From positions 33,626-97,625 of IMG/VR virus record IMGVR_UViG_3300043673_000021: a stretch of 64,000 nucleotides of DNA; one strand, 5' to 3'. This DNA comes from a virus. Under the pieces are notes generated by a model. That model did not search any database. It saw nothing but the letters and a program-made list of their open reading frames with translations, and had not been told where the DNA came from. The translations under genes were made by a program, and so were the position numbers. Below, piece by piece: positions 39,567 through 40,373 of this stretch; within the stretch, counting starts at the first letter, position 1; each line of letters opens with the position of its first letter.

Positions 39567-40373
39567 TCAACGCTGGCACGGTATGACTTTCCCCTCGTTC
39601 ACAAACTGATTCCCAACCGTTTTGCTGTCCCGAGCACATAGAGAGCCTACTGTCTGTCTGTCTGTCTGTCTGTCTGTCTGTCTGTCTACGAATTCGCGAC
39701 CGACTCCAGAGCCAACCTCAGTTGCTTTGGCAATTCTTTTCCGCGCTTCTCTGCGCGTCGGAGGATGCCGGCGCAAGCTCGCGGACTCAAGAAGTATTTC
39801 TCCGGGATCGGGCCCGCCCACAGGACATCCGACAACGAACACACGTTCGCGTCGTTGGGCCACGCCGAAATATTGGGCGTCGAGAAGTCTCCACGCGAGG
39901 CGGCGCTTGGGTCCATCAACCATACCCGCGTCGGTCCAGCGCTGTCCTCTTGCTGGAACGAGTGCGGAGTCCGCTCCCGCCAGCGCTCCCAGAAAGCACC
40001 CGAAGGCATTATCTGAGGTGGAGAGCACTCCAGGTACGTTCTCCCAAACAATTCCTCCAGGGTTAATTGCATCGCAGATCCTCACGAAAGTTAGACATAA
40101 ATTAGAACGGTCATCATCGAGAGAGCCACGAAGACCAGCCACGGAAAACCCTTGGCATGGCGTTCCTGCCATCAGCCAATCGATCTTTCCGAATACCAGG
40201 GCCCGAGATATAAAATCGGATGCTGTTATGTCCCCCAAGTTAGGGACATCGGGTCGGTGGTGCGACAGCACGGCGACTGGAAACTTCTCAATTTCCGCGC
40301 ACCACTTCCACTCGATATCCGGCATCGCGGTTTCAGGAGCGCCAATCCCAGAACACACCGTTGCGCCGGTCAC
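39567..40373 (-). CDS. C5 cytosine methyltransferase, N-terminal part (motifs I-VIII)
   Basis: 268 residues from GTG 40373 (GTGA overlap with the preceding gene). Motif I TVCSGIGAPETAM, motif IV with catalytic cysteine AGTPCQGFSVAGLRGS, motif VI WENVPGVLS, motif VIII AQRRERVFVVG. Then an in-frame (DRQT)3 encoded by nine GACA repeats, and GSLCARDSKTVGNQFVNEGK, the beginning of the phage-type recognition region, before a stop at 39567. Motifs IX-X lie in the second ORF. Phage host-range or anti-restriction methylation is the likely role. Confidence 0.85.
   Translation of the reverse strand: MTGATVCSGIGAPETAMPDIEWKWCAEIEKFPVAVLSHHRPDVPNLGDITASDFISRALVFGKIDWLMAGTPCQGFSVAGLRGSLDDDRSNLCLTFVRICDAINPGGIVWENVPGVLSTSDNAFGCFLGALAGADSALVPARGQRWTDAGMVDGPKRRLAWRLLDAQYFGVAQRRERVFVVGCPVGGPDPGEILLESASLRRHPPTRREARKRIAKATEVGSGVGREFVDRQTDRQTDRQTVGSLCARDSKTVGNQFVNEGKVIPCQR
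39651..39686 (-). repeat. Tetranucleotide repeat (GACA)9 in methylase
   Basis: Nine perfect TGTC units on the plus strand (GACA on the coding strand) encode DRQT three times. A change of one unit shifts the frame, as in phase-variable mod genes of Haemophilus and Neisseria. At nine units the frame is open through the conserved GSLCARD segment. Confidence 0.95.

Follow-up and report, generated by a model that had tools for sequence, protein, structure and literature searches.

The window analysed here, a stretch of 64,000 nucleotides, belongs to a longer virus record in IMG/VR (97,625 b). An ORF on its minus strand (39567..40373) was assigned as the catalytic half of a C5-methyltransferase on the basis of a PF00145 match (1.4e-24, residues 24-202), its start context and a partial match to TIGR00675 (82.8 bits, below the cut-off of 100.65). 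The C5-methyltransferase motifs I, IV (PCQ), VI (ENV) and VIII are all present. The probable start is a GTG at 40373, which overlaps the stop of the upstream gene as GTGA, and the frame remains open up to a TTG at 40421 (39567-40421). Solved structures searched with the catalytic half gave no match below 1e-10.

A (GACA)9.5 tract (39650..39687, minus strand) lies within this ORF. TRF reported a period-4 array over 39650-39687 with 9.5 copies and 100% matches, and an exact count gave nine GACA units (39686-39651, minus strand). The tract is translated in the methylase frame as DRQTDRQTDRQT, containing (DRQT)3, and is located 3' of motif VIII (QRRERVFVVG) and immediately 5' of VGSLCARDSKTVGNQFVNEGKV. 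TRF and translation agree here with the earlier note, in which nine perfect units encoding three copies of DRQT were placed between motif VIII and a conserved GSLCARD segment. No other tetranucleotide repeat of three or more units was found in the window, the expectation for such a tract in random sequence is ~3e-15, and the GACA tract contains no stop codon in any frame. It is a repeat of the kind seen in mod-type genes, namely a perfect array of at least five units inside an ORF with a unit that is not a multiple of three, and it belongs to the GACA class, defined as at least six units on the sense strand directly after motif VIII of a C5-methylase.

The remainder of the methylase is found downstream in a separate ORF (37567..39165, minus strand) comprising a linker, the target-recognition (TRD) region and motifs IX and X, which was assigned by PF00145 (1.8e-6, residues 454-528) and by matches to phage DNA-methyltransferase PHROGs. 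Motifs I to X are therefore not carried on a single polypeptide, I-VIII being in 39567-40373 and IX-X in 37567-39165, and the layout is that of a split M.AquI-like enzyme with motifs I-VIII in the N-terminal ORF and the TRD, IX and X in the C-terminal ORF. Comparison with L003, an intact relative in which one ORF of 540 aa reads through GDVGSLCARDSKTVGNQFVNEGKVFAAPERSMCLNGGGNNRIDAESETF with neither tract nor HNH sequence, identified an HNH-type endonuclease ORF (39155..39514, minus strand) between the halves. This ORF is preceded by a Shine-Dalgarno-like GGAGGG, ends in the methylase residues SMCLNAGG and overlaps the C-terminal half by 11 nt. Beside the HNH insertion the methylase of the window has two further frame breaks, one after the first linker module (module 1) and one at a G8 run (39175..39182, minus strand), the sole G/C run of seven or more in the window. 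The latter break falls between SMCLNAGG and QKRMDAESETF; L003 has G8 at the matching place, but in frame. The catalytic and IX/X motifs show no obvious decay, both halves are long open frames, and start and stop codons at the locus overlap as GTGA, ATGA and ATGGACGCTGA.

An intron or intein at the HNH insertion was rejected, no Rfam intron family being detected at E values up to 1, and a group I intron carrying an HNH gene did not fit an insert with ~60 nt outside the HNH ORF. A programmed -1 frameshift after module 1 was also weighed, but the frame concerned offers no clean slippery heptamer at the candidate site, GAGGGGAAAG. A second HNH ORF (37743..38432, minus strand; 229 aa) was observed in another frame inside the 532-aa C-terminal ORF, with a weak PF13392 match and tblastn matches, and both frames are open over ~690 bp. 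An HNH sequence 51% identical to it lies within an annotated C5-methylase CDS of Staphylococcus phage CUB-EPI_14 (L337). HNH insertions recur in related methylases: L002 (3215-3739) has one at motif I, and in L129 (4107-6377) HNH sequence is in frame between motifs IX and X.

Tracts of n = 5 to 14 units were translated in silico. The earlier note had placed the tract inside a phage DNA methylase and implied a frame shift on any single-unit change, and both points were borne out. With 6, 9 or 12 units the ORF stops at 39567, 28 codons beyond the tract for n = 9, and module 1 (VGSLCARDSKTVGNQFVNEGKV; 39585..39650, minus strand) is kept in frame. Module 1 differs between the window and L003 by 17 synonymous and 0 nonsynonymous codons, and the nine-unit frame, which keeps the VGSLCARD..NEGKV module, is by this comparison the conserved one. 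With 7, 10 or 13 units module 1 is misread, TVPALTARGSVDEAHGYFVLEGK is read, and translation continues through a module-2-like stretch, SHTVPALTARGSVDEAHGYFVLEGK (39511..39588, minus strand), whose TGA at 39511 overlaps the ATG of the HNH ORF as ATGA. By eye this stretch resembles the linker modules of relatives; because tblastn with module 2 gave no match, that it is a methylase module is something we infer. With 5, 8, 11 or 14 units the ORF stops at 39647, which for n = 8 is three codons past the repeat. The products of 8, 9 and 10 units are 256, 284 and 304 residues, and translation ends 53 nt upstream of the HNH ATG for n = 9 and ~133 nt upstream for n = 8.

Loss of one unit thus truncates the protein, as had been claimed for both loss and gain, whereas gain of one unit lengthens it, and the ORF of the window stops at 39567 in any case. 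Over n = 5-14 the products span 252-308 aa only and all end before the HNH ORF, so that the full-length enzyme is made in no phase; motifs I-VIII precede the tract whatever the phase, and translation never extends into the TRD half. The proposal that the tract acts exactly as in mod genes did not hold, as no tract length restores a full-length enzyme and the TRD with motifs IX and X forms a separate ORF beyond the HNH gene. Because the target-recognition half is a separate ORF, the tract sets the tail of the catalytic subunit and the spacing to the next start, and not the presence of the catalytic motifs.

The sequence immediately before the tract is overprinted by a conserved ORF of 128 aa (39686..40072, minus strand) in the +1 frame of the methylase, the stop codon of which abuts the tract. 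It begins shortly before motif VI, ends shortly after motif VIII and reads MQLT..CSLSDVL..ACAGILRRAEKRGKELP. Over the compared region the +1 frame was free of stops in 84/84 window-type methylases against 34.7 expected from synonymous-codon permutation, and the +2 frame was never stop-free in these 84. Divergence at fourfold sites was 0.347 in the overlap and 0.646 upstream (2,872 sequence pairs, which are not independent). Synonymous sites in the overprinted ORF are, as judged from these values, under strong constraint. A Shine-Dalgarno-like 4-mer precedes its ATG in 27/79 cases against a background of 0.09. With tblastn the ORF was located in 138 named phage records, the listed ones carrying the annotation methyltransferase or hypothetical protein, and one PHROG of the overprinted ORF is named methyltransferase. 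AlphaFold predicted a helical C-terminus (~residues 90-128, pLDDT >=90) and an N-terminus of low confidence.

The catalytic half is ~43-57% identical to P1 Dmt and to C5-methylases of Vibrio, Pseudomonas and Sinorhizobium phages. Peptide scans for near-identical relatives were run with both halves; the first found only relatives of ~32-53%, and the second only partial matches. Among relatives identified via the neighbouring ATPase gene, a C5-methylase is encoded by only one member above 90 kb, and it is a different enzyme, whose gene lacks a GACA tract. In L411 (94,720 b), a relative via the same ATPase gene, the C5-methylase is overlapped by a 348-codon ORF that lies in a different frame. When 103 catalytic domains were placed in a tree, the window grouped with L258 and L002 (support 100/99), and the 19 other tract-bearing methylases stood apart from it. 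No tetranucleotide tract of 16 bases or more was present in any of the 92 loci retrieved by searches with the window gene. The tract of the window is, on this phylogenetic evidence, an independent and lineage-specific gain, because the tree forces at least two gains and 0/92 loci have a tract.

GACA tracts were surveyed by scanning IMG/VR for six exact units, which returned at least 119 stretches and is not a random sample. Among the matches listed, most tracts were in genes, on the sense strand and read as DRQT repeats. Pfam assignment of 97 tract ORFs among these matches gave 52 PAPS_reduct, 19 DNA_methylase (20 with the window), 7 Methylase_S (HsdS), 3 N6_N4_Mtase and a single reverse transcriptase. 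As controls, 109 ORFs of these contigs gave 3 DNA_methylase and at most 1 PAPS_reduct. Among the matches listed, both C5-methylases (19/97 against 3/109, Fisher p = 7e-5) and PAPS-reductase-like genes (52/97 against at most 1/109, Fisher p ~1e-20) were over-represented. Such tracts had been called unusual in phages, a view which is contradicted by at least 119 IMG/VR stretches with six or more units, concentrated in phage modification genes. In bacterial genomes GACA tracts were found in HsdS (17/53), acyltransferases and glycosyltransferases, which are the usual phase-variable classes.

Several further observations were made in the survey. In viral contigs GACA tracts lay most often in PAPS-reductase-like genes (L007-L125; 52/97 ORFs among the matches listed), where they occupy a recurring position behind a SKEVSE..GARKYL motif, most copies being out of phase. 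A recurrent ORF of ~400 nt before the tract was at first taken for the overprinted ORF; its translations proved to be mainly PAPS-reductase-like proteins. A tract of 24 units lies in a reverse transcriptase ORF (L049, 2176-3204) that is open on both sides. Second repeats (AGAGC, GCAA, AGCA, TACT/TTAC) were seen near or in tract-bearing genes in L035, L083, L059, L094, L071, L013, L061 and L064, which suggests multi-tract switching; within methylases, AGAGC occurs in L035 and L083 and a second repeat in L081. A 76% homologue of one tract-bearing C5-methylase, encoded by the named phage Dulem virus 39, is itself without the tract.

Copy number was compared among related phages, and tract-bearing C5-methyltransferases of other phages were found to differ by one unit with a consequent flip of the frame. 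The methylases of L048 (10.5 units) and L114 (9.5) have flanks 97 and 94% identical, and those of L075 (6.5) and L084 (7.5) have flanks 96 and 88% identical; these four were the only C5-methylase contigs found in the flank-anchored scan. PAPS genes of L055 and L118 (10 units) and of L107 (12) have flanks 99.8-100% identical, and the unit change between L037 (6.75) and L039 (9.75) keeps the frame. All three phases were represented in one clade of tract-bearing C5-methylases, in which a linker module, A, is in frame in L013 and L085, in frame +1 in L035, L108 and L116, and in frame +2 in L050, L081, L093, L105 and L115. Linker module B was always +1 relative to module A in L050, L081, L085, L093 and L105, and tract phase would therefore choose between the modules in these contigs. 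Of the PAPS genes in which the frame after the tract is long and open, 6 were in phase and 23 out of phase, this frame being open in the latter for ~250-330 codons. Simple decay of the PAPS genes is argued against because the out-of-phase halves are intact.

These data are somewhat more consistent than not with a slipped-strand frame switch in a split phage C5-methyltransferase, acting on the tail of its catalytic subunit. The tract would be a hypermutable simple-sequence repeat situated within the linker that joins the catalytic domain (I-VIII) to the target-recognition part, and slippage by one GACA unit at replication would place the rest of the first ORF in a new frame. The two halves presumably function as a split, two-subunit methyltransferase, the assembly or expression of which may depend on phase, and the phage population would then be mixed in methylation. 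The proposal draws on analogy with C5-methyltransferases, PAPS-reductase-like and HsdS genes of other phages, in which GACA tracts differ in units and frame. In its favour, the tract is unique and perfect, the nine-unit frame is conserved and the motifs are without obvious decay; the concentration of GACA tracts in modification genes, and the variation of unit number and phase among related phages, would support it by analogy.

Several of the same features are also those of a methylase decaying after invasion by the HNH gene, the GACA tract and the G8 break being products of ordinary slippage with no switching role. This main rival is a real, if lesser, possibility. The gene is broken by the HNH ORF and again after module 1 and at G8, the tract is missing from all 92 loci fetched and so is not a conserved trait of the window lineage, and the full-length enzyme is restored by no phase; each of these points was counted against the switch. 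A decaying gene would not, however, be expected to keep catalytic and IX/X motifs that look intact in two long open frames, nor neat overlaps of starts and stops (GTGA, ATGA, ATGGACGCTGA). The recurrence of GACA at the same place in C5-methylases of other phages, well beyond its frequency in the controls, also argues against decay, as does the full conservation of module 1 against L003, although this mostly reflects selection before the split.

It is rather unlikely that the tract serves mainly in translational coupling to the genes downstream, with 10 units coupling three ORFs and 9 or 8 units losing the coupling. The geometry suits this proposal, in that n = 7, 10 and 13 stop at 39511 on the HNH ATG, with n = 9 and n = 8 ending 53 and ~133 nt short of it, and in the 11-nt ORF overlap the C-terminal half starts before the HNH stop. 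Coupling may not matter, however, as a strong ribosome-binding-like GGAGGG of its own precedes the HNH ORF, and the conserved module 1 is misread with 10 units. An error of assembly or sequencing in the repeat or in the nearby homopolymers would be compatible with a record drawn from a viral contig collection and with the homopolymeric nature of G8, yet is highly improbable: ordinary reads are longer than a perfect repeat of 38 bases, ORFs elsewhere in the window are long and intact (up to 1525 aa), and similar tracts occur in many independent contigs.

The frame switch may be extended to a wider and more doubtful reading, in which GACA tracts would be a widespread and repeatedly gained switch of phage DNA-modification genes. 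In the window, tract length would decide which of two linker modules the split methyltransferase contains, and would set the coupling to the inserted homing endonuclease and the target-recognition half, and the adjoining overprinted gene would be unaffected. If GACA tracts do act in this manner, variation in their own DNA modification would serve phage populations as a hedge against host restriction. The survey indicates that GACA tracts prefer phage modification genes (C5-methylases, PAPS-reductase-like and HsdS) and that unit number differs between close relatives, and to this the window adds an independently gained tract, in a methylase that a homing endonuclease has split.

In bacteria, the switching of DNA methylation by repeats is a classic device. 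The tract of the window resembles those of phase-variable type III mod, type I hsdS and type IIG genes of host-adapted bacteria in being a repeat within a methyltransferase ORF, with a unit that is not a multiple of three and slippage that shifts the frame. Unlike these, the window encodes a phage C5-cytosine enzyme with the tract after motif VIII, no full-length phase and a second half beyond an HNH gene. Phase-variable methyltransferase genes include Campylobacter cj0031, which is split into two reading frames by a G9 tract (PMC4889913), and the ModS methyltransferase of Streptococcus suis (PMC8125046). No report of repeat-switched phage methylases was found in the open-access literature. 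One case of phage repeat switching was found there, in Campylobacter phages, in which hypermutable polyG tracts are described as switching a receptor-binding protein (Sorensen et al. 2021 Cell Rep, as cited in PMC11868660). As in those phages, the repeat of the window is phage-encoded, and the phase variation described there is proposed here. The window differs from the polyG system as cited in having a tetranucleotide tract in a DNA-modification gene and not a receptor-binding protein gene.

Further parallels are provided by L048/L114, L075/L084, L081 and L105, among others, which share with the window a GACA unit after motif VIII of a C5-methylase and downstream modules in different frames; they differ in belonging to separate methylase lineages in the tree, the tract of the window being an independent gain. 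The catalytic half is homologous to those of P1 Dmt and the Vibrio, Pseudomonas and Sinorhizobium phage C5-methylases. Unlike the window, the viral-contig homologues fetched in searches with the window gene are without a tetranucleotide tract (0/92 loci). M.AquI is a two-subunit C5-methyltransferase in which the first ORF carries motifs I-VIII and the second the TRD and motifs IX and X. The split methylase of the window departs from this arrangement in having an HNH ORF between the halves and a repeat within the first ORF.
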